A stretch of DNA of 64,000 bases from an uncultured Lachnospiraceae bacterium (GTDB taxonomy: Bacteria > Bacillota > Clostridia > Lachnospirales > Lachnospiraceae), in the NCBI GenBank assembly GCA_947243855.1, contig CAMXIK010000007.1, positions 1-64,000 on the forward strand, in the 5' to 3' direction. Numbering within the stretch: the first letter of the stretch is position 1; every line of letters begins with the position of its first letter. The notes beneath the pieces were generated by a model, which made no database searches, had not been told where the DNA came from, and saw only the letters and a list, made by a program, of their open reading frames with translations. Shown here in pieces: positions 1-22,825 of this stretch. Position numbers and translations under genes: made by a program.

Positions 1-709
1 ACACAGGTTCACCCCCGCCTACGCGGGGAAAAGTATAAGACTGACATTGGGGGGGTGCAGATACAGTAGGTTCACCCCCGCCTACGCGGGGAAAAGGGTG
101 CTGTCCAGAACTATTTTTTCTATCCGTCCGGTTCACCCCCGCCTACGCGGGGAAAAGGGATCGGGCAAATGGAAAACCAGACTTCTTTAAGGTTCACCCC
201 CGCCTACGCGGGGAAAAGTTCAGGATCAGGCGTATCTGGTTCAGATAGGCAGGTTCACCCCCGCCTACGCGGGGAAAAGTACCTCCGCACGGTTTAATAC
301 GTTCCCGCTCTCGGGTTCACCCCCGCCTACGCGGGGAAAAGGTACATCTATGAGTGATAAAGAAAAAAGAAATAGGTTCACCCCCGCCTACGCGGGGAAA
401 AGGGATCGGGCAAATGGAAAACCAGACTTCTTTAAGGTTCACCCCCGCCTACGCGGGGAAAAGAGCGAAAGCGGCATATCTGCCGGAATGTATGTAGGTT
501 CACCCCCGCCTACGCGGGGAAAAGCTTCTCCCTGTGCTTCTTTATCTCCACATCAAGGGTTCACCCCCGCCTACGCGGGGAAAAGGATGTCCATCCATGT
601 ATGTGGATCTCCTCACAAAGGTTCACCCCCGCCTACGCGGGGAAAAGTCCAACATAGCCATGCAAGAAGCCATAGTATGAAGGTTCACCCCCGCCTACGC
701 GGGGAAAAG
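1..709 (-). CRISPR. Type I-E CRISPR array, 12 identical repeats visible, open at left edge
   Basis: Twelve identical 28-nt repeats start at 6, 69, 130, 191, 252, 314, 375, 436, 497, 558, 620 and 682. On the plus strand they begin GGTTCACCCCCGCC. The 11 complete spacers are 33-35 nt. Read on the minus strand the repeat has the usual I-E form: a CCCCGC stem, its GCGGGG partner and a GTGAACC end that would supply the crRNA 5' handle. The array is therefore probably transcribed leftward, like the cas genes, with the leader-proximal end next to cas2 and older spacers beyond base 1. Spacers 158-190 and 403-435 are identical. The lack of any decayed repeat in view suggests that the true distal end is outside the window. 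Confidence 0.97.
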
Positions 710-747
710 ACTAAAAAAGAACCCTAAATATAAGCGCTTTTGTATTT

Positions 748-2590
<1,843 letters not shown>

Positions 2591-3205
2591 TTATACCCTT
2601 ACGATCGTCATAAGACCTTGTCCATACGCCTTTTCTCTTCCAATCCCCTTACAAAGCGTCTCCCTAAATTTTTCGGCGTCTGATATTGTCAGCATACCTT
2701 CAAATGTCACAGATAGCAAACGGATATTTGCCGACTTATCCCCATCCTTTTTACTAAAGCTATACCACTTTGACCACACTGTCTGAAATTCATTATCCTC
2801 TAACAAAAACCCACATCGCTCCGCCCTGTCCATCAGCCACTTTTTTTGATATTCAGGTGTAACATGAGCCATTATCTTACCATGAGATTTCGAAATCGTT
2901 GGATTTGCCGTTAGCTTGAAACGCCATTTCATACCGTCCGAAACTCTGTTGAGAAGAATTGCATAATCTTTTGTCTCATACACACCCGCATAACCAAACT
3001 GTCCCACAAAATGTTCTAGGTTTGGTATCTCTTCACTCAAAATCAACATATATTTTTTCCCATTTAGATCATCTATTCTCCAAAGACGGCGAGCTCTGCC
3101 TCCGCTGAAGGACTCCTCAATCGCACCATGAAACTTGCTTGGAGATACAAGCGCTTTCATCGTCTTCCGCAATCCTATATTAAGCTCGATCCGTGATAAA
3201 TACAT
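2591..3205 (-). CDS. cas6e: Cas6e (Cse3) pre-crRNA endoribonuclease
   Basis: Protein of 204 aa that cuts the repeat hairpin in pre-crRNA and stays bound to the 3' stem as part of Cascade. H26 in FHGAIE is at the position of the catalytic histidine of Cas6e proteins. The C-terminal glycine-rich segment GREKAYGQGL (about 189-198) is the usual RNA-binding loop. The start at 3205 has GAGGTG 5 nt upstream. It lies 4 nt after the cas5e stop. The matching substrate is the GC-rich stem in the array repeat. Confidence 0.95.
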   Translation of the reverse strand: MYLSRIELNIGLRKTMKALVSPSKFHGAIEESFSGGRARRLWRIDDLNGKKYMLILSEEIPNLEHFVGQFGYAGVYETKDYAILLNRVSDGMKWRFKLTANPTISKSHGKIMAHVTPEYQKKWLMDRAERCGFLLEDNEFQTVWSKWYSFSKKDGDKSANIRLLSVTFEGMLTISDAEKFRETLCKGIGREKAYGQGLMTIVRV

Positions 3206-3209
3206 AATT

Positions 3210-3860
3210 TCACCTCAATTCCGACATAGCATCATGTTCTGATGGATTTTGATTCAGCTCCACATAAAATTCTTTGACCTTACGATAACCATAGATTCGT
3301 TTTTGCGGGTCAAAAGATACCGGCACATCCTGCGCCATTCCTGCCTGCAAATCATTCGTTTCTATTTGTATCCGTATGGTTTTTTCTCTATTTTCACAGA
3401 CGGATGGTTCTTCAATCAACGCTTCTTCAAGCGTCTTATGGCGAATCCCAATCACGATTGGCGGCGTTGGCGGACAAGACCGTCTTCCTAAAAAAAGTGG
3501 AAAACAAGGATTCTGCAAAGCATTTTCCAACTCCTCAATTATTTTTTCATTCCCTTCAAGTCCTGCTAAAAAAACAGCATCCGAAAGGTAATGCCGATAC
3601 GTTACATAAGAATCCTTTCCCTTTTGGGTTCTGGCAATATGAAAGTCAGTTATATGCTCTCCCTCACGATCTGCACGGACGCCAAATTTCAAATCAGTAA
3701 GTTTCGTCAAATCTGCATTTCTCTCCCATCCCAACGCCGCTGCCAACATTCCCACGACACCACTTTTGGTCGGCATTTTTTCAGTTGTTCTTGTCTCAAA
3801 TTTTGAACTATTCCCCCACGACTGCAAGGGCGCCGCAAGTCTTAAAAGCAATGTGGACAT
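3210..3860 (-). CDS. cas5e: Cas5e Cascade subunit
   Basis: Protein of 217 aa that caps the 5' handle of the crRNA in Cascade. The N-terminus STLLLRLAAPLQSWG and the following GVVGMLAAALGW are typical of Cas5e. The ORF track begins at an upstream GTG (3875), but the ATG at 3860 has GAGGG 8 nt upstream and gives the family-typical N-terminus, so I chose it. That start lies 1 nt after the cas7e stop (3862), which suggests translational coupling. Confidence 0.93.
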   Translation of the reverse strand: MSTLLLRLAAPLQSWGNSSKFETRTTEKMPTKSGVVGMLAAALGWERNADLTKLTDLKFGVRADREGEHITDFHIARTQKGKDSYVTYRHYLSDAVFLAGLEGNEKIIEELENALQNPCFPLFLGRRSCPPTPPIVIGIRHKTLEEALIEEPSVCENREKTIRIQIETNDLQAGMAQDVPVSFDPQKRIYGYRKVKEFYVELNQNPSEHDAMSELR

Positions 3861-3861
3861 A

Positions 3862-4911
3862 CTATTTACCCTCACTTTCAGACAAATTCTCCTTCACCGC
3901 CGTATCTAATGCAAGAAAAATCTGAGCAAGATTGCCGTCCTCAAATGTCCAACTTTTTTCAGGAGCGCACGCGTAATTTTTATATACTTTTTGAGAATAT
4001 TCTTTTAATGCCTTTTCAGACATTTCAACATAACCGCCCTCTTTTCCTGAAACCGGCTTTTCAAAAGCGCCGCAAAGATTGATCGGCTGATCCTTTCTTA
4101 GTGTTATATAAATATAATCTGGAACCGTACGATTGGCAAATGTATTCTGTTTCCCTGTAGGCATAGATTTAATAAAAGATTCAATAAACCCTTGCACTAC
4201 ATCAGGTGTACGTTCGCCAAGCTGCTTATAAAGTTCTTTGACATTCACTGTCGCATATCTATAAAGCGTTGCAGAAGTAAACTCAACCGTCCCTAAATGC
4301 CCTGCGCCGGCTTCATTATCGCTTATCAAATCGTCAACAGCCGTAAAATAATCGTACTCATTGTGAACCGTATGCGTAGATATCGCATGCGCGACCTGAA
4401 CTGCCGCATCAATATTTAACCCTGCGTCGGCTGCTACCATACGTCCAAATAATGCCATATCAACAGACGGAGATTCCTTAACTGCCGCTTGATATTCCTT
4501 TTTATCGCCGCATCCTTCAATTGCCAGCTTTGCTAATGCCTTGGCCTGCGCCATACTAAAAAACATTAGCACGTCTGTTTTATTCTCTTTATTGGACTTT
4601 ACACCTATGTAATCCAACGCCTTGGATGCAAGTTTTAATGCCTTTTCATCATCTACGCTATCGTCAATCCTCTTAATCTCCTCAGCAATCATCTGGGGAA
4701 TCTTTTTCGTGCGAACGCCGATCTCTTCCTGATTAAAAATCTCTTCAAACATCTTCCTCATCTCATATTTCCATGCCTGCGAAGAAACTCTCGCTCTCAC
4801 CGTTCCGCCATACTTAGCAGTTTTAGGGCTTCCGGTATCGTCGCGGTTTACACAGCTCGGGGGAACATTTTGCAAAACATGAATGTCTACATACAAATTA
4901 TTTCTTGTCAT
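3862..4911 (-). CDS. cas7e: Cas7e (Cse4/CasC) Cascade backbone subunit
   Basis: Backbone protein of Cascade, present in several copies along the crRNA. It is 349 aa from the ATG at 4911. I preferred this to the track start at 4935 because GGAAG lies 6-7 nt upstream and the protein then begins TRNNLYVDIHVLQNVPPS, as in the family. Further Cas7e features are NRDDTGSPKTAKYGG and RARVSSQAWK in the N-terminal third. The start overlaps the end of cse2 by 14 nt. Confidence 0.95.
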   Translation of the reverse strand: MTRNNLYVDIHVLQNVPPSCVNRDDTGSPKTAKYGGTVRARVSSQAWKYEMRKMFEEIFNQEEIGVRTKKIPQMIAEEIKRIDDSVDDEKALKLASKALDYIGVKSNKENKTDVLMFFSMAQAKALAKLAIEGCGDKKEYQAAVKESPSVDMALFGRMVAADAGLNIDAAVQVAHAISTHTVHNEYDYFTAVDDLISDNEAGAGHLGTVEFTSATLYRYATVNVKELYKQLGERTPDVVQGFIESFIKSMPTGKQNTFANRTVPDYIYITLRKDQPINLCGAFEKPVSGKEGGYVEMSEKALKEYSQKVYKNYACAPEKSWTFEDGNLAQIFLALDTAVKENLSESEGK

Positions 4912-5491
4912 CGTTCTCTTCCTTTCCGTTTTCATTTGTTTTTATTTTTCGGTAAAAATCCTGTCCCCATTTCAGCCGTATCCTATCTACATACTTTTCA
5001 GACTGAAACAGAAACAGATCTTTTGCAAGATCAACATAATCCAATGGTATATCCTTCGCACTGAGCAATCTAACCAGCGTTTTCAATCGATACGCCAATT
5101 CTTCCATATCATCAGACTGTGCTGCCAGACTAAGTTTAAATCTAATACGTTCTTCCTCCTCATCACTATGTACAAGTTTTCTTGCCGAGCATCCCAACGA
5201 GTTGTCTTTCCCCTGCAAATTCACCGACTCGGAATGCCCCTGCTGGTGAAGAGCAAAAAGCGTCAGAGCCGTATAAATTGCCCACTCTGCACGAGTTGGA
5301 TCGCATCCTTTACTCATCAGTTCTTCCGGAAGTGTTTGCAAAAATATCCCCCACAATTCCGGAAGCTCTCCCGGACTTTTACCAATGCCTCTACGAAGTT
5401 GCGCAAGCTGTCCCTTGGCTTCTCCCGCATTCAAATTACCTGTCAATAAAAATAATCGTCCTCTCACATATTCCCCAACCGCATTAACCAC
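4898..5491 (-). CDS. casB: Cse2 (CasB/Cas11e) Cascade small subunit
   Basis: Predicted small subunit of I-E Cascade, 197 aa and largely helical, that stabilises the R-loop. The central region (RAEWAIYTALTLFALHQQG) matches the Cse2 core, and position between cas8e and cas7e supports the call. The GTG start at 5491 follows a strong GAGGAGGTGA. The highly charged C-terminus (GKEENDDKK) overlaps the start of cas7e. Cse2 proteins diverge quickly, so gene order carries part of this assignment. Confidence 0.9.
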   Translation of the reverse strand: MVNAVGEYVRGRLFLLTGNLNAGEAKGQLAQLRRGIGKSPGELPELWGIFLQTLPEELMSKGCDPTRAEWAIYTALTLFALHQQGHSESVNLQGKDNSLGCSARKLVHSDEEEERIRFKLSLAAQSDDMEELAYRLKTLVRLLSAKDIPLDYVDLAKDLFLFQSEKYVDRIRLKWGQDFYRKIKTNENGKEENDDKK

Positions 5492-5507
5492 TGTATCACC
5501 TCCTCAA

Positions 5508-7112
5508 TTATGCGTCTTTTAATGAGTTCAATTCGTACTCAAAACGATTCATCGCTTTCGCAACAGAATATCCTTTTTCAGAACTTCCCAAGATTGCTGT
5601 CGAAACAGTCTGCTTCACAATCTCTTTTCCTAAATCTTCCGCAACACTAAAGCAAATATCTCTCCACGCTCTCTCTTTCTGCTCCACATCATCCGTCTCC
5701 GGTATAATCATACAAAGCCATTTTCGAAACGGTGCATCCACACGATTATAAAACTCCGCTTTCCATTTATTTGCATAAACTTTGGCAGGACATTTCTCTT
5801 CTTTTGGAATATAATCTCCTCCTTCTGCAACATTTACATCTTTAGCAAAGTTCCATACTTTTTCGGAAACACTATCACAAAATGCAACGCAATTAACGAT
5901 GCTGTTCTGCCAACTATGATTCATATTCGAAATTAACGCCGCATGCATTTGAATGGAATCGGAAAATACATTGACTACAAAAAAGTCCTTATCTCCATAT
6001 TGTATCGATGCAATTTTTACATTCAAAGAATGATCTTTTAGTATATCCTCACTCTCCAATTTATCCACCCATGAAATAACACCCGGGCGATGCACATTTT
6101 CTCTGATTTGAAGGAATGAAGAAAAATTTCTCCAGAACTGTTTTGATGGATTATGCCTGCGAGGCACAAATATTTCATTCCTTTTTCGATCCGCCTGTCT
6201 CCAAATTGTCATTGGCTCGATAAACGCATTTTCTCTTTCAAAGAAATCTCCTCCAAGTAAATGATATCCTGTTACGTATTCTCCTTTTCTAGTTAAATAT
6301 AGTCTTCTTGATTGCAATGTATATAGTGCAGATAAATTATCGGGCAGAGGAATCTCTATTCGTTCTCCATCAGCGACTCCGTCGCGTTCCCAAACCGGTT
6401 TTTCTTCTCCCCACAGTTCTCCATGTTCATTTAACAAAACCATATTTAACATAAGGGTTTCAAAAAGGGTATTCCCTGAAACACTGATAAGTCCCAATTT
6501 CCCAAGCCAGCCGACTCCAGGAGACGGCAACTTTGTGCCGGTCAGTTTAGACTCGCTGGATGGTTTTGCCGAAGTATCATCATAAGCGTTCACATAAATA
6601 AGCCACCTCGCCGCCTCCGAAAAATCTACGGTTTCCTTCCTTTGTCCGCTCACACTAGAAAACAAACGAATTTTGTTACTGCTCTCAGATAAATTTCCGT
6701 TTAATTTTGCCGCTGTATAAGCTGTCCCAATTTTCGCGCGCTCACACTGAAAAAACGGTCTTTCAGGATGAAACAAATAAAATTTTTCCCTCTGTGATTC
6801 CAAATACGCCGTTATCACTTCTGCCGGAAATTTTTTCCTTTCCCACAGTTCCTCCCAGCGATCCAACGCCTCGTCAGGATCATTTAATTTTACCGCATTT
6901 CCATGTCTGTCATATCTTGAAAACACTGTATGTAAAACTGCAAGCAATACCCTCATTACAGCAAAATCCTGCGTAGGAAGCTCACCACACAAATCTCTAT
7001 ATCTGTGCGCGTCTCTAAATACATCCAAAAGAGAAACTTCCGTCATATTACAGTTATCGTCAATCACACATATCCACCGTTCATCAAGCAAATTAAATTC
7101 TTTGTCGCTCAA
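5508..7112 (-). CDS. casA: Cas8e (Cse1/CasA) Cascade large subunit
   Basis: Large subunit of I-E Cascade, 534 aa, that recognises the PAM and recruits Cas3. The N-terminus (FNLLDERWICV) and the following QDFAVMRVLLAVLHTVF are typical of Cse1, and length is normal. The start is TTG at 7112, overlapping the cas3 stop by 4 nt (TTGA), with GGAGGAG upstream in the end of cas3. PAM preference cannot be read from the sequence. Confidence 0.94.
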   Translation of the reverse strand: MSDKEFNLLDERWICVIDDNCNMTEVSLLDVFRDAHRYRDLCGELPTQDFAVMRVLLAVLHTVFSRYDRHGNAVKLNDPDEALDRWEELWERKKFPAEVITAYLESQREKFYLFHPERPFFQCERAKIGTAYTAAKLNGNLSESSNKIRLFSSVSGQRKETVDFSEAARWLIYVNAYDDTSAKPSSESKLTGTKLPSPGVGWLGKLGLISVSGNTLFETLMLNMVLLNEHGELWGEEKPVWERDGVADGERIEIPLPDNLSALYTLQSRRLYLTRKGEYVTGYHLLGGDFFERENAFIEPMTIWRQADRKRNEIFVPRRHNPSKQFWRNFSSFLQIRENVHRPGVISWVDKLESEDILKDHSLNVKIASIQYGDKDFFVVNVFSDSIQMHAALISNMNHSWQNSIVNCVAFCDSVSEKVWNFAKDVNVAEGGDYIPKEEKCPAKVYANKWKAEFYNRVDAPFRKWLCMIIPETDDVEQKERAWRDICFSVAEDLGKEIVKQTVSTAILGSSEKGYSVAKAMNRFEYELNSLKDA

Positions 7113-9787
7113 TTTGTTTTCTCCTCCATCTTTATGTATGCAAGACCGTTATCACGAGAATAGGAAATATGATATCCACACAATTCATTTGTCAGGTTTT
7201 CATTAAGCAACAATACCAGCTCTCCCTTAAGCCAATGCGATTTTTGAAATCCCGTCAAATACCTATCCATCTGTTCCAGTTCTTCTATTGTTCTGTCCAC
7301 GTTCCACACCTGAGAAAATATTGTAGGAAGCCTCAGCTTTTGCTGTGCAATCAAACGACAGTCATTCTCCGGCGGACAAATGTCCGCTAAATATCTTTTC
7401 TCATTCGAGTTCCATGGTAAAAATCCCAGCGTTCCATCCGAATACGCCACCAATATAATGACCTCAATTGATGAAATCCCATCTCGTACAGCCGCCAATG
7501 CTTTATCCTCGTTATCTCCCACACTGTTTTCCAACCAATCGTGAAGGTTATTTTGCCGTCTACTGTCTCTTGGCGGAGACATTAAAAAGGCTTTTGCACG
7601 TTGCTCTTTTTTTTGAATTAAATTCTTATAGTCAGCAAATGCTTCTTTTCCCTCTTTCTCATTAGGAATGACTTCCCGATATGTTTCACAAATTAAACTG
7701 TCAATGTCTTTAGGAATAACAATGCTGTCAGGCAGCAGCTCTCTCGTTCGCAAAAGAAGCCATTTGGTATAAATATGCTCCGATTCTGTGTTGAGTTCTT
7801 TCACTCCCAAAACGATACACTTTGCACTGTTATAGTTAAAAGGCCTGTCCTGACGTTCATGACGGTGCATCCTGCCAATCCTTTGAAGCAGAAGATCCAT
7901 CGGACATAAATCCGTTATCAACAAATCGAAATCAATATCCAACGACTGTTCAAGGACCTGTGTTCCAATTACAATAGTCCCTTTTCTCATCGAAAAATCA
8001 GATTTTTTCCCAACCGCTTTTTTCAAAGCATCTTCTTTCTCTATTCGATCGGAAATGATAAATTGTGCATGATAAATAATCACTTTTGCTCCAACAATCT
8101 CCCGTGCCAATTCCGCAAAACGCTGTGCTCTGGAAACCGTATTGCAGATAATACCAGCACACGCCCCTGCCTTTACCACACACTTTATTTCTTCAATGAT
8201 ATCTTCCTCTGCCATTGAAACTATCTGAATTTTTTTCTCAGAAGATGTCAGAGATAACCCTTTCGTTCTCACCTGTTCTCCATCAGTATAAGTAAGTCGC
8301 GGATAGGGAATCGCATTTACTTCATCATCTTGCTGTGTCCGTCTCAAATATGCATTAATAAGCTCCTGCCGTCTGTTTGCCGGGAGTGTCGCCGATAACA
8401 GAATAACCGGGATTTTGTATTCATGCAGCCATGCCAACGCCCTGTCAAGGTATTGATTCATATAAGCGTCGTACGCATGGCATTCGTCTACGATAACAAC
8501 CTTTTGAGACAGTCCCAAATGTAACAACATCGCATGTTTCTTCTTTAAAACTGACATCAACAGACGATCAACTGTTCCAACTACAAAATCTGATAAAAGC
8601 GATTGCTTACTCCCCATAAAAAAAGCATGTACAATCAGCCCGCTTTCCTCTCCTCCGTCTTCATCAATGCACGGAATACTTTTTTGCATATTTACGAATG
8701 TAGGTTGAAATTCCGCGTTGCCATGCGCCAGATTTATGCTGTGAAATGCCTCCGAGGACTGTAGTTTTGCCCACTGCGCCACACGTTCAAAAATACCATT
8801 AGCCGTTGCCTGTGTAGGCAATCCAAAAAAAATCCCCGTTTTTTCAAATCTATTCGCCAAAATTTCGGCTACCGAAAGAGCTGCCTCCGTTTTTCCAATC
8901 CCCATCGGCGCTTCCAAAATAAACAGCCCTGGTGATTTTACATCTTCAACTGTTTCAATAACCGACTTTTGTATTTCATTCATGAAGAATCCAAAACGTT
9001 CATTAAAATCCTCTTCAAAAATACGTTCCTGTTCCGGCTCCCATACTTCAGGCAGACCCATTCTATCCAAGGCAGTTTCAAAACGTTTATCGGGATATTC
9101 ACTCTCAGACAAAATCTGATCTTCATCTATTAATTCAAACTTAGACTGATCGCTGGCCAACCAGTCCGCCATGATGAGCAATCCAGATAACAGTATCTGC
9201 GTTCTTTTATTCAGCTTTATCATTTCAGACACATCAGAAAATCCCGCTCTCTCAAGTGAAAACGCTCCCCATTCTTTGTAGAAATTCTCCCAAACGATAT
9301 GCTGTTGGGGACTCCCGAAAAAATGCTTTTGATAATTGTCTATGTGATTTTTCACATCTTCTGCCGGCATGCCGTGATGTGCCCCGACGATAGATGCAAA
9401 TTCATTAGGGAATCCCATGTAAAGCAATATTGCCTCGCCACACTTTGCGTGGTGAGAATATTTCTTATTAATAAAGTCCGAGTATTCTGGCACATGGATA
9501 CCATAATGCTCAAATACTGTCCTTCTTTCCGGCAGCGATTCTAATATCTTAGCCTGAAACAGCGGCGAAATTTTTCCAATGTCATGAAGATATGCAAGAA
9601 GTATCCCTGTTTTCTTTAAGTCCTCAAACGACATTCCACATATCTGCGCCAGCCCTTGATATCTTTTATGCAGCAAATATTTCATAACATTTGCAGTATC
9701 TTTCGCATGCATCCAAAGAGGAAGCCAGTTGTTGCTCTCATAAGCAGATTTAGCGATAATCAGTTTTATTGCATTCGAAAGTTGCAA
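7109..9787 (-). CDS. cas3: Cas3 HD nuclease-helicase, type I-E
   Basis: Effector nuclease-helicase of 892 aa that unwinds and degrades DNA after Cascade binding. The HD domain (about 1-250) shows H27, HDIGK (68-72), SHHAKCGEA (111-119) and GAHHG (135-139). The SF2 helicase follows with Walker A APMGIGKT (293-300), DECH box (434-437), SATLP (465-469) and motif VI QRIGRMHRH (635-643). All catalytic positions look intact. The start is TTG at 9787 with GAGAGG 8 nt upstream; an in-frame stop lies just ahead, so no longer form is possible. It begins 36 nt after the toxin stop with no clear promoter between. Confidence 0.96.
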   Translation of the reverse strand: MQLSNAIKLIIAKSAYESNNWLPLWMHAKDTANVMKYLLHKRYQGLAQICGMSFEDLKKTGILLAYLHDIGKISPLFQAKILESLPERRTVFEHYGIHVPEYSDFINKKYSHHAKCGEAILLYMGFPNEFASIVGAHHGMPAEDVKNHIDNYQKHFFGSPQQHIVWENFYKEWGAFSLERAGFSDVSEMIKLNKRTQILLSGLLIMADWLASDQSKFELIDEDQILSESEYPDKRFETALDRMGLPEVWEPEQERIFEEDFNERFGFFMNEIQKSVIETVEDVKSPGLFILEAPMGIGKTEAALSVAEILANRFEKTGIFFGLPTQATANGIFERVAQWAKLQSSEAFHSINLAHGNAEFQPTFVNMQKSIPCIDEDGGEESGLIVHAFFMGSKQSLLSDFVVGTVDRLLMSVLKKKHAMLLHLGLSQKVVIVDECHAYDAYMNQYLDRALAWLHEYKIPVILLSATLPANRRQELINAYLRRTQQDDEVNAIPYPRLTYTDGEQVRTKGLSLTSSEKKIQIVSMAEEDIIEEIKCVVKAGACAGIICNTVSRAQRFAELAREIVGAKVIIYHAQFIISDRIEKEDALKKAVGKKSDFSMRKGTIVIGTQVLEQSLDIDFDLLITDLCPMDLLLQRIGRMHRHERQDRPFNYNSAKCIVLGVKELNTESEHIYTKWLLLRTRELLPDSIVIPKDIDSLICETYREVIPNEKEGKEAFADYKNLIQKKEQRAKAFLMSPPRDSRRQNNLHDWLENSVGDNEDKALAAVRDGISSIEVIILVAYSDGTLGFLPWNSNEKRYLADICPPENDCRLIAQQKLRLPTIFSQVWNVDRTIEELEQMDRYLTGFQKSHWLKGELVLLLNENLTNELCGYHISYSRDNGLAYIKMEEKTN

Positions 9788-9823
9788 ATTCTTTTCCTCT
9801 CTTCATTTGCCATATGGAAAACG

Positions 9824-10120
9824 CTACTTTTGTTTCCAGTATTGCTTTAACTGCTCGTAAAAGTTCTCCCTCGTTCCGGCCATGATAACGACAATCACCT
9901 TGTCCGCTGTATACTCTACCGTGTAAGCAAGTTCATAGTTTGTTTTATTATAATAAATGTCGTACCCATATATACCGGCCAAATCTCCGGTTTTCACCTC
10001 GCCAACCGTATGATCTTTCCGAATTTTGTCCACCGCTTCCTGATATAACGACTTTAATCTTTTGTCTTTTATTTTTTTTATGAATTTAGCAGCCGGCGGA
10101 AGAAAGACCACTTCTGTCAT
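9824..10120 (-). CDS. RelE/ParE-family toxin of a type II TA pair
   Basis: Small basic protein of 98 aa with the RelE-fold pattern: VVFLPPAAKFIKKIKDK near the N-terminus, a central GDLAGIYGYDIYYNKTNYELAYTVE strand region, and a C-terminal ending in EQLKQYWKQK. RelE-type toxins are usually ribosome-dependent mRNA interferases, and ParE relatives poison gyrase; which applies here is not visible. The ATG overlaps the antitoxin stop by 4 nt (ATGA). cas3 begins 36 nt downstream in the same direction, so the toxin is probably co-transcribed with the cas genes. Confidence 0.85.
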   Translation of the reverse strand: MTEVVFLPPAAKFIKKIKDKRLKSLYQEAVDKIRKDHTVGEVKTGDLAGIYGYDIYYNKTNYELAYTVEYTADKVIVVIMAGTRENFYEQLKQYWKQK

Positions 10121-10497
10121 CCCTCATCCTCCATACCAAAAACATCGTTATAAGAAGCAAAAGGACTTTCTGCTGTCGCCGCGCGTTTCGCCTCCTCAAG
10201 CATTCCCTCCACCGCCGGGCGAACCTGACTTTGCGCTTCTTTAAACCGAAAAAGCAGTTCATCGCCGCTATATCCCTGTTTAATTAAATCCGCCAATATC
10301 TGTTCCGCAAATTCTCCCCCTGCGCTTGTCTTTACGGGACGTATCACCAATTCATTTCCACGAATCATGCACTCCGCTTCCGTATCAAATCCTAATGTAG
10401 AAAAAAATTTTTGAGGAATCGTGATCTGCCGTTTTGCCGAAATAGCGATTTTTTTCATTTCCATAACGGGTTTCTCTCTCATCATTGCCACTGACAT
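10117..10497 (-). CDS. AbrB/MazE-fold antitoxin, first gene of the TA-cas transcription unit
   Basis: Protein of 126 aa. The N-terminal swapped-hairpin AbrB domain is visible as IAISAKRQITIPQKFFSTLG and NELVIRPVK (about 16-55). A helical acidic C-terminal half would bind and neutralise the toxin. The ATG at 10497 has GGAGAG 8 nt upstream; internal ATGs at residues 12 and 14 have poorer spacing. Such antitoxins usually repress their own promoter. An inverted repeat lies at the likely transcription start just upstream, which fits. The promoter is the nearest strong one upstream of cas3. Confidence 0.85.
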   Translation of the reverse strand: MSVAMMREKPVMEMKKIAISAKRQITIPQKFFSTLGFDTEAECMIRGNELVIRPVKTSAGGEFAEQILADLIKQGYSGDELLFRFKEAQSQVRPAVEGMLEEAKRAATAESPFASYNDVFGMEDEG

Positions 10498-10526
10498 TAT
10501 TTATTCTCTCCATATTCTACACAATT

Positions 10527-10554
10527 CAAAGAAAAAATATTCTTGGTTTCTTTG
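10527..10554 (-). promoter_or_regulatory. Inverted repeat, likely TA operator
   Basis: CAAAGAAA and TTTCTTTG form 8-nt arms separated by 12 nt. The site begins 3 nt below the -10 box of the TA promoter, over the expected start of transcription. A TA complex bound here would block initiation. Its role as an operator is inferred from position. Confidence 0.6.
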
Positions 10555-10557
10555 ATT

Positions 10558-10586
10558 ATTATATCTAACTTCTCCCTTTTCGTCAA
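10558..10586 (-). promoter_or_regulatory. Sigma-A promoter of the TA-cas operon
   Basis: Minus-strand TTGACG (10581-10586), a 17-nt spacer, and TATAAT (10558-10563). This near-consensus promoter lies between the spoIVA terminator and the antitoxin gene. I see no comparable promoter between here and cas3. Confidence 0.85.
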
Positions 10587-10591
10587 CTAAA

Positions 10592-10628
10592 TAGAAAAAG
10601 CCGAGAACCTTTCTCAGATTCCCGGCTT
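10592..10628 (-). terminator. Terminator of spoIVA
   Basis: On the minus strand AAGCCGGGAA pairs with TTCTCGGCTT (one mismatch) around an inner GA-rich loop, followed by TTTCTATTT. It isolates the TA-cas promoter from spoIVA transcription. Confidence 0.8.
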
Positions 10629-10632
10629 ACCT

Positions 10633-10655
10633 CAGCCCGCGCCCATTCGCAAAAC
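10633..10655 (-). repeat. Dispersed intergenic repeat, copy 1
   Basis: About 22 nt (minus strand GTTTTGCGAATGGGCGCGG plus CTG) also found at 34984-35005. Copy 1 has one extra G in the GCGGGCTG part. It sits between the spoIVA stop and its terminator. Confidence 0.6.
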
Positions 10656-10663
10656 TCACACAG

Positions 10664-12151
10664 TTAGATGATGATACACACCATTCCTCCATTACAATCG
10701 TTCACAATCTTCTGCATGGTCTCCTGCAGCTTCACCTGACTCTCCTCATTAATCATGGAAATCTTACCCGTAATGCCGTCGTTGACAAGCTGCTCCACGG
10801 TCTTTCCAAAAATATTGGTCTCCCAGATTCCCTCCTCGCCGGTATCCGCATCCGAAATAAATTGAATCAGATCCCTCGCTTGTTCCTCGGTTCCTACAAT
10901 AGGCGATATCTCCGTCTCTATGCTGGCCTTGATCATATGTATGCTGGGACTCTCGGCTTTGATCTTTACGCCAAACTTATTGCCTTGTTTAATCAGCTCC
11001 GGTTTTTCCAGCACAATCTCTTCCCGATCGGGCATCACCACGCCGTAACCCTTGTAACGTACCGCCTCCAAAGCATGCAGTACCTTCACATACTCCCGCT
11101 TCATCTTCGCCATCTCACGCAGGGTTGCAAGAAGCTGGTATTCGCTGCCGATATTTTCACCAACAAGCTCACTCAACATTTCGTAATAATAGGCGTCATC
11201 CACGTCAAGCACGATCCGCACACTGCCGTCAGACATATTGATGCCGTCCAGCTTGCATTTTTTAATGTATTCGCTCTCCACAGAAAACCGGTCCGCCGTA
11301 ATATCGCGGATATGGTTTAAATCCGCCATCAGCTCTTTGAGTTTACCGATGATATCCTGCTTCATCTTATGATCGCAGGGAAGCATCTCCACCCACTTGG
11401 GCATATAAAATTCAATCATGGTGAGCGGAAATTCGTAGAGGATGTTTTCCATGATGTGATTGATATCCTCTTTTTTCAACTGCTCACAGTTAATGGGCAT
11501 CACCGTGACCTGATACTTTTCGCTGATCTCGTCAGCCAAATTCCTTGTCTCCTCCGCATATGGCTTCTCGGAGTTTAAGAGCACAATATAAGGTTTTCCA
11601 AGCGCCTGCAGCTCCTTGATCGTTCGCTCCTCGGCTTCCAGAAAGCTCTCTCTCGGCAGTTCCCCGAAGGAACCGTCGCAGGTCACCACAATGCCAATTG
11701 TAGAATGATCCCGGATTACCTTTCTGGTGCCGATCTCCGCCGCTTTGGTAAAAGGAATCTCCTCCATGGACCATGGCGTTTTTACCATACGCTCCTCGTC
11801 CTTTTCCATATGGCCGCTGGCGCCGTCCACCATATAGCCCACGCAGTCGATCAGGCGCACCTTCACGTCAATGTCCGCCCCCAGCTTCACATGGGCCGCC
11901 TCCTTGGGGATAAACTTCGGTTCCGTCGTGGTGATGGTCTTCCCGCCGGCGCTCTGGGGCATTTCATCCTGCGCCCGCTCTTTCTCATGCTCATCCTCCA
12001 TATAGGGAAGCACCAAAAGATTCATAAAACGCTTAATGAAAGTAGACTTTCCCGTTCTGACCGGACCTACTACGCCCAGATAGATTTCGCCCCCCGTTCT
12101 GCGCTGTATATCTTTATACAAGTCATATGTACTATTCTGTAAGATATCCAT
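10664..12151 (-). CDS. spoIVA: SpoIVA, spore coat-anchoring ATPase
   Basis: Spore morphogenetic protein of 495 aa that polymerises on the forespore outer membrane as the base of the coat. Length is close to the Bacillus protein. The N-terminus carries GGEIYLGVVGPVRTGKSTF with Walker A near residues 29-37, and a later DCVGYMVDGA. The C-terminus ends in a short hydrophobic MVCIII, as is typical. Two adjacent ATGs follow AGGAGGA; the second (12151) has better spacing. Upstream at 12181-12210 a CATATACA with a GGTATA 16 nt away loosely resembles a sigma-E promoter, which would fit mother-cell expression. Confidence 0.95.
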   Translation of the reverse strand: MDILQNSTYDLYKDIQRRTGGEIYLGVVGPVRTGKSTFIKRFMNLLVLPYMEDEHEKERAQDEMPQSAGGKTITTTEPKFIPKEAAHVKLGADIDVKVRLIDCVGYMVDGASGHMEKDEERMVKTPWSMEEIPFTKAAEIGTRKVIRDHSTIGIVVTCDGSFGELPRESFLEAEERTIKELQALGKPYIVLLNSEKPYAEETRNLADEISEKYQVTVMPINCEQLKKEDINHIMENILYEFPLTMIEFYMPKWVEMLPCDHKMKQDIIGKLKELMADLNHIRDITADRFSVESEYIKKCKLDGINMSDGSVRIVLDVDDAYYYEMLSELVGENIGSEYQLLATLREMAKMKREYVKVLHALEAVRYKGYGVVMPDREEIVLEKPELIKQGNKFGVKIKAESPSIHMIKASIETEISPIVGTEEQARDLIQFISDADTGEEGIWETNIFGKTVEQLVNDGITGKISMINEESQVKLQETMQKIVNDCNGGMVCIII

Positions 12152-12180
12152 CATAAAATCCTCCTGCTTATACTGGTAAA

Positions 12181-22157: not shown

Positions 22158-22562
22158 TTAGATAAATAAATACTGCTCGCAGAAATTTTTTGCTGTCACA
22201 ATCTGAATGTTTTCATATTCTTTTATTACCAAAAGATCTTTATCACCGCTAACAATATATAAAGCATGGGAGTCCCTTGCACATTCCAAAAATTTATTAT
22301 CATCAGGATCTCGGCATATTTCAACCAGAGTAGTCGGCTCAATAATTTCCATAGCTTTAATCAGCGGACCTAAAATTGCCTTATTAATATGTCCTTGCTT
22401 TTCATCAATCATTTCTTGTACAATTTCCTCATATTCGCTAATAATCTCTGCCGTAGCACATGCAGTTATTTTCTGACCAACCACAGCGCTAAGAATTTTT
22501 CTTGGAAATCCGCCAAAAAACACACCGGAAATCAGTACATTCGTGTCTATTACAATTCTCAT
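22158..22562 (-). CDS. PIN-domain toxin (COG1569-type)
   Basis: Putative RNase toxin of 134 aa. PIN-domain acidic residues are visible: VIDTNVLISG (D6), a central SEYEEIVQE, CRDPDDNKFLECA, and SGDKDLL near the C-terminus. This is the PIN subfamily annotated as the toxin of a type II pair. Its ATG overlaps the stop of the upstream AbrB antitoxin by 4 nt. Confidence 0.88.
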   Translation of the reverse strand: MRIVIDTNVLISGVFFGGFPRKILSAVVGQKITACATAEIISEYEEIVQEMIDEKQGHINKAILGPLIKAMEIIEPTTLVEICRDPDDNKFLECARDSHALYIVSGDKDLLVIKEYENIQIVTAKNFCEQYLFI

Positions 22563-22825
22563 ACGCGTTTCTTCTTTCTAACTGATTTAACAATATTATC
22601 AACATCATTTTCATGATATCCAACCGACAGCGCCCACTTTTGAGCCTCGTCCAGTGAAGCCTCAAATTCTTCCGCAGAAGGAATTTTTAAAGTCTTGAGC
22701 ATGATAACATCTCCTGAAGTATAAGCGACCAGTTTATCGCCAGTATCAATCGAAAGAAGCTTTCGGATACTAACTGGCAGGGAAATCTGCCCTTTGGAAG
22801 AAACGGTTAATATTTGTGTACTCAT
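22559..22825 (-). CDS. AbrB/SpoVT-like antitoxin
   Basis: Antitoxin of 88 aa with an N-terminal AbrB DNA-binding domain (LTVSSKGQISLPVSIRKLLSIDTGDKLVAY) and an acidic helical tail (SAEEFEASLDEAQKWAL). AAAGGAG lies 9 nt before the ATG. A promoter and a palindrome sit directly upstream, consistent with autoregulation. It uses the same DNA-binding fold as the antitoxin upstream of cas3, but the two are clearly different in sequence and toxin partner. Confidence 0.88.
   Translation of the reverse strand: MSTQILTVSSKGQISLPVSIRKLLSIDTGDKLVAYTSGDVIMLKTLKIPSAEEFEASLDEAQKWALSVGYHENDVDNIVKSVRKKKRV

Follow-up and report, generated by a model that had tools for sequence, protein, structure and literature searches.

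On the minus strand of the window (the whole stretch of 64,000 nucleotides from an uncultured Lachnospiraceae bacterium analysed here), the promoter that precedes a type II toxin–antitoxin (TA) module and a type I-E CRISPR-Cas operon overlaps an array of short repeats that is conserved, together with this position, across homologous loci. Judged from these homologues, the element is probably the autoregulatory operator of the module, which is composed of an AbrB/MazE-like antitoxin and a ParE-like toxin, and would act by blocking RNA polymerase at the start of transcription. We put forward more tentatively, as a possibility that could well prove wrong, that through this 8-bp direct-repeat operator a type II antitoxin also governs how strongly a complete type I-E cas operon is expressed.

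The promoter and its inverted repeat

The promoter comprises a -35 box, TTGACG (10581..10586, minus strand), and a -10 box, TATAAT (10558..10563, minus strand), both assigned from the sequence and a promoter scan and separated by a spacer of 17 nt. With a score of 11/12 it is the top sigma-70-type match on both strands of positions 650-10700. The intrinsic terminator of spoIVA (10598..10628, minus strand) lies directly upstream, so that the genes downstream appear to start with a promoter of their own, which this predicted terminator should insulate. Along the minus strand, TATAAT is followed by AAT and then by the two arms of an inverted repeat, CAAAGAAA (10554-10547) and TTTCTTTG (10534-10527), with an N12 spacer between them. 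A preliminary description of this DNA had reported the inverted repeat, and it is real and exactly placed at 10554-10527; its first arm does start 3 nt past the -10 box, at 10554 after TATAAT at 10563-10558, and the proposed overlap with the start of what looks like the TA-cas transcript is supported. The exact CAAAGAAA-N12-TTTCTTTG arrangement occurs a single time in the 3.58-Mb genome, both strands read.

The window contains 48 perfect 8-bp inverted repeats whose spacers are 3-20 nt long, versus 18.5 after shuffling, and shuffled copies of the intergenic region have one or more in 4.9% of cases, those of the leader in 3.7%. Because of this chance of about 4-5%, the inverted repeat alone is weak evidence, and it is significant because relatives conserve the units of which it is made. 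The same frequency is what speaks for a purely fortuitous inverted repeat in an A-rich leader, an explanation that we regard as barely credible, since the units, their 8-bp period, their register and the spacing of the inverted unit are conserved across many genera.

An 8-bp unit in register with the -10 box

The homologous loci comprise 80 antitoxin-encoding loci, drawn from genomes of the family and genus as well as from a species-level genome collection, and the operator comparison set consists of 87 distinct regions upstream of the antitoxin. What is conserved among these 87 promoters is an 8-bp unit, ACMARGAA, arranged as a head-to-tail array in register with the -10 box. At least one exact unit is found in 80/87 regions and a tandem pair in 54/87, counts made in the same loci from which the consensus had been read by eye, a circularity that the viral and genome-wide counts given below escape only partly. 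Pairs of units 8 bp apart were observed 65 times, versus 0 in 200 dinucleotide shuffles. Exact units begin 10 nt past the -10 box in 47/78 loci and 18 nt past it in 42/78, with few at other offsets, and the first unit falls into one 8-nt phase class relative to the -10 box in 54/71 loci. Its distance to the start codon is more variable (sd 13.8 versus 4.6 nt), and this combination of a phase kept to the -10 box with a looser distance to the start codon points to a function at the DNA level, at the promoter.

In the window, three units can be placed on the minus strand: direct unit 1, TCAAAGAA (10548..10555), which has one mismatch to ACMARGAA and begins 2 nt past the -10 box; direct unit 2, ACCAAGAA (10540..10547), an exact match that begins 10 nt past it; and an inverted unit, TTCTTTGA (10526..10533), 24 nt past it. 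Direct unit 1 holds most of the left arm of the inverted repeat and the inverted unit most of the right arm, with a spacing that is kept in many homologous loci. Direct unit 2, which the preliminary description had overlooked, is the best conserved part and occupies the most conserved register position among homologues. Relatives commonly carry the same direct/direct/inverted trio moved by one 8-bp step with respect to the window. The number of units ranges from one to seven, the longest arrays being those of Oribacterium (L020 and L100, the latter from O. parvum), in which seven head-to-tail units stand straight after the -10 box and provide a natural test of copy-number effects.

An inverted unit downstream of the direct ones is present, with one mismatch allowed, in 28 loci (about a third), mostly starting 14 or 22 bp from the start of a direct unit. 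In the nearest syntenic relative, L029 (Lachnospiraceae UBA7143), the array reads ACCAAGAA-ACAAGGAA-ACAAAGAA, that is, three direct units without a clean inverted unit, which speaks against the palindrome as the functional unit. The earlier view of an operator-like element belonging to the TA pair is therefore kept, and that of a simple palindrome is replaced by an 8-bp direct array with a downstream inverted unit; on comparison of the homologues, the reported palindrome is one pairing inside this larger array.

The arms can also pair as RNA, and they lie in the predicted leader, so that a hairpin affecting the translation or stability of a TA-cas mRNA could be envisaged; the isolated element has a folding energy of -3.7 kcal/mol. 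The 63-nt leader, however, folds no better than its shuffles (z -0.21), and the stem is not formed in the relative L041. Among the 28 loci with an inverted unit, this unit pairs perfectly with direct unit 1 in 4 and with direct unit 2 in 10, and it is TTCTTTGA in 20 while the direct units alternate between CCAAGAA and CAAAGAA. The spacing of the units is moreover fixed to the -10 box and not to the start codon, and no Rfam match was found at 9700-10800. On these folding and pairing patterns we reject the leader hairpin, which we consider very improbable, and retain the reading of the array as a DNA operator.

Several further features of the arrays were observed. Many relatives (e.g. L031 and L041) have a degenerate unit with the consensus TCTTRGAA at 2-9 nt past the -10 box, often before the first exact unit, and in some loci the degenerate unit forms a second palindrome, TCTTGG-ATA-CCAAGA, together with unit 1. 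GG-type units (ACAAGGAA) tend to be paired with antitoxins that carry KRQFTIP, in what looks like one clade (among L016, L017, L018, L019, L027 and L085), and a threonine at antitoxin position 18 accompanies GG-type units in the KRQFTIP clade and in the separate case of L085. The antitoxin residues tied to GG-type units are possible determinants of specificity, a lead only, given that the covariation of antitoxin and operator has exceptions and that the F variants look like a single clade.

Occurrence of the motif in genomes and viruses

Among 397 genomes of the family, the exact 16-bp tandem motif is present in 13/25 genomes with the antitoxin versus 34/372 of the others (Fisher p = 3e-7). 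All 19 matches in these 13 genomes sit just upstream of an antitoxin gene, and the 34 matches outside antitoxin genomes are close to the number given by a reversed-pattern control (39), that is, at chance level. Thirty loci were examined, and downstream of the 24 matches that are not antitoxin promoters no antitoxin was found; these matches fall mostly inside long open frames. The 12/25 antitoxin genomes that lack the exact motif include the window's own, where the array has one mismatch and where three other one-mismatch matches to the tandem motif occur, and some of the 12 hold only fragments of the antitoxin. A scan of viral contigs for a -10 box followed by the motif gave 15 matches. Three of them (L163, L165 and L171) are near-identical phage loci in which a distant homologue of the antitoxin, with the segment SKNQITIP, is encoded directly behind the motif (E about 1e-33); of the other viral matches most look like chance, and one (L168) is cut off at the contig end. 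By this distribution, the tandem motif marks the promoter of the AbrB-like antitoxin.

The same distribution bears on the question of which protein binds. The array could be the site of another regulator, for instance a global repressor of both TA and cas genes, and since cas operons are often controlled by host regulators and the antitoxin is a putative binder of the array, this alternative has some weight. From a global regulator one would expect further targets, however, and in the antitoxin-bearing genomes of the family the exact motif is found nowhere but at antitoxin promoters; it also travels with the antitoxin in phage contigs. We therefore regard another regulator as unlikely, and continue with the antitoxin as the candidate binding protein.

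The antitoxin and toxin

The antitoxin gene (10117..10497, minus strand) encodes a protein of 126 aa with an AbrB/MazE-like N-terminus that contains the motif KRQITIPQKF, and the SxKRQITIPQKF segment is invariant across 35 aligned antitoxins. Searched against Pfam and NCBIfam, the protein gave no family at cut-off and no Pfam AbrB match, and its sequence profile compares with that of MazE at E 0.15. A structure model of moderate confidence (mean pLDDT 71.5) was obtained, and a fold search placed the DNA-bound domain of AbrB, MazE, VapB and SpoVT among the top matches, with probabilities of up to 0.92 and E values above 0.1. The protein is thus likely to be AbrB/MazE-like, an assignment that is weak by profile and backed by the motif and the ranking of modelled folds. 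The toxin gene (9824..10120, minus strand) encodes 98 aa of the ParE-like toxin family PF15781 (E 1.2e-24) and overlaps the antitoxin stop codon by 4 bp (ATGA). The two genes form an adjacent, co-directional pair with a recognised toxin family, as in type II TA modules, and in most homologous loci the toxin gene is likewise next to that of the antitoxin. Elsewhere in the window, translation of positions 22158-22825 (minus strand) indicates another likely TA pair, in which a 134-aa PIN-like protein (MRIVIDTNVLISG) comes after an 88-aa protein with an AbrB-like motif (TVSSKGQISLPVSIRKLL).

The cas operon and its proposed link to the TA promoter

The gene for type I-E Cas3 (7109..9787, minus strand, with a TTG start as listed) begins 36 nt past the toxin stop codon and is followed, on the same strand, by cas8e (also referred to as cse1; 5508..7112), cas11e (cse2; 4898..5491) and cas7e (cse4; 3862..4935). 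Four more co-directional ORFs of 221, 204, 332 and 291 aa (748..3875, minus strand) fit, by position and size, cas5, cas6, cas1 and cas2, and a CRISPR array of 12 repeats, GGTTCACCCCCGCCTACGCGGGGAAAAG, lies at 6..709. The presence of cas3, cse1, cse2 and cas7e along with a CRISPR array identifies the system as type I-E.

A terminator was looked for in the gap between toxin and cas3 and none was found, nor is there a promoter-like site scoring at least 9/12 on the minus strand between 7349 and 10558. Co-transcription of TA and cas genes from the TA promoter, and with it co-regulation of cas, is therefore plausible from the gene arrangement; control by the operator would extend to cas if the transcript crosses the 36-nt gap, as the gene order suggests. 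The operator may instead control the TA genes only, with a cas promoter located inside the coding region of the toxin or of cas3. Such TA modules are normally free-standing, the close type I-E relatives L130-L132 (60-64% identity) are without TA and have a different sequence ahead of cas3, and the operon does contain weak promoter-like matches, about as dense as expected by chance. Against these points stand the short gap, the lack of a site of at least 9/12 in the interval named above and the conservation of gene order and close spacing of toxin and cas3 in L029. On balance we judge this restricted control unlikely, though much less so than the hairpin or another regulator.

L029, with the order spoIVA-antitoxin-toxin-cas3-cas8-cas7, is the sole other species in which we found TA-cas linkage, and it has it at the same site, next to spoIVA (10664..12154, minus strand, in the window), which serves as the upstream neighbour and landmark of the insertion site; L120, from a genome of the same genus, is apparently the same locus as L029. 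Homology between L029 and the window begins at the -10 box and continues through the operator, the TA genes and cas3. Just upstream of the TA promoter in L029 (5839-5900) lies a fragment that resembles the start of the gene which L206 has next after spoIVA, and this points to an insertion that brought in the TA-cas block; in the other spoIVA neighbourhoods of the same genus examined (up to 1.5 kb) neither TA nor cas3 was found. Within the stretches examined, almost no cas genes lie next to TA homologues. As cas genes are missing next to most of the operator's homologues, regulation of CRISPR is not what it evolved for, and by this comparison it belongs to the TA module.

Proposed mechanism and implications

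The model that we favour has dimers of the antitoxin, either free or complexed with toxin, occupying several ACMARGAA units and the inverted unit from about -4 to +26 relative to the predicted start site; RNA polymerase would thereby be kept from initiating at the promoter. Both the identity of the antitoxin as the protein that binds and the repressive effect of its binding are inferred. As several sites are available, conditional cooperativity at the operator is possible. As this promoter is the sole strong one before cas3, the transcription level of the type I-E cas genes would likewise depend on repression. If this is true, depletion of antitoxin or excess of toxin would raise CRISPR transcription together with that of the toxin, and a TA sensor would be wired straight to adaptive immunity.

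The array offers a clear and testable operator class for a widespread family of AbrB-like/ParE-like TA modules in Clostridia, and a unit phased to the -10 box and present in variable copy number lends itself to work on the assembly of antitoxins on DNA. The TA switch stands ahead of a CRISPR-Cas operon in two related species, so that the state of the module could tune adaptive immunity.

Comparison with known systems

In the open-licence literature we found no description of an 8-bp phased operator of this kind, nor of a type II TA module placed ahead of a cas operon and sharing one promoter with it. The arrangement of the genes resembles a composite AbrB-ParE module proposed in Geobacillus (PMC6929052), in which, compared by description, the gene for a SpoVT/AbrB-type antitoxin likewise lies upstream of, and overlaps, that for a ParE-type toxin in one operon; in the part of that report drawn on for the comparison, neither an operator nor a cas linkage is described (PMC6929052). 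In E. coli mazEF, MazE autoregulates by repression at an ‘alternating palindrome’ (PMC4803016), and the two systems share an AbrB-type antitoxin (in our case as the putative regulator) and a multi-site operator at its own promoter in which several pairings of arms are possible (PMC4803016). The toxin there is MazF and the operator is palindromic, whereas here it is an 8-bp direct array. In the omega-epsilon-zeta TA system of pSM19035, too, the operator is an array of short unit repeats, 7-bp heptads along which dimers of the omega repressor are presumed to polymerise (PMC4803016); in contrast to the regulator proposed here, omega is a ribbon-helix-helix protein and not the antitoxin, its unit and period are different, and it also controls other plasmid genes. 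TA modules coupled to CRISPR in other ways have been described (PMC12737573; Makarova et al. PMC3506569), including CreTA, an RNA toxin and antitoxin under the control of the Cas effector (PMC10097628), which represses them by means of a crRNA-like guide. The locus described here shares with CreTA and the other couplings the tie between a toxin or TA module and a CRISPR-Cas locus, and differs from CreTA in that the pair is a type II pair of proteins, whose own operator would control cas.
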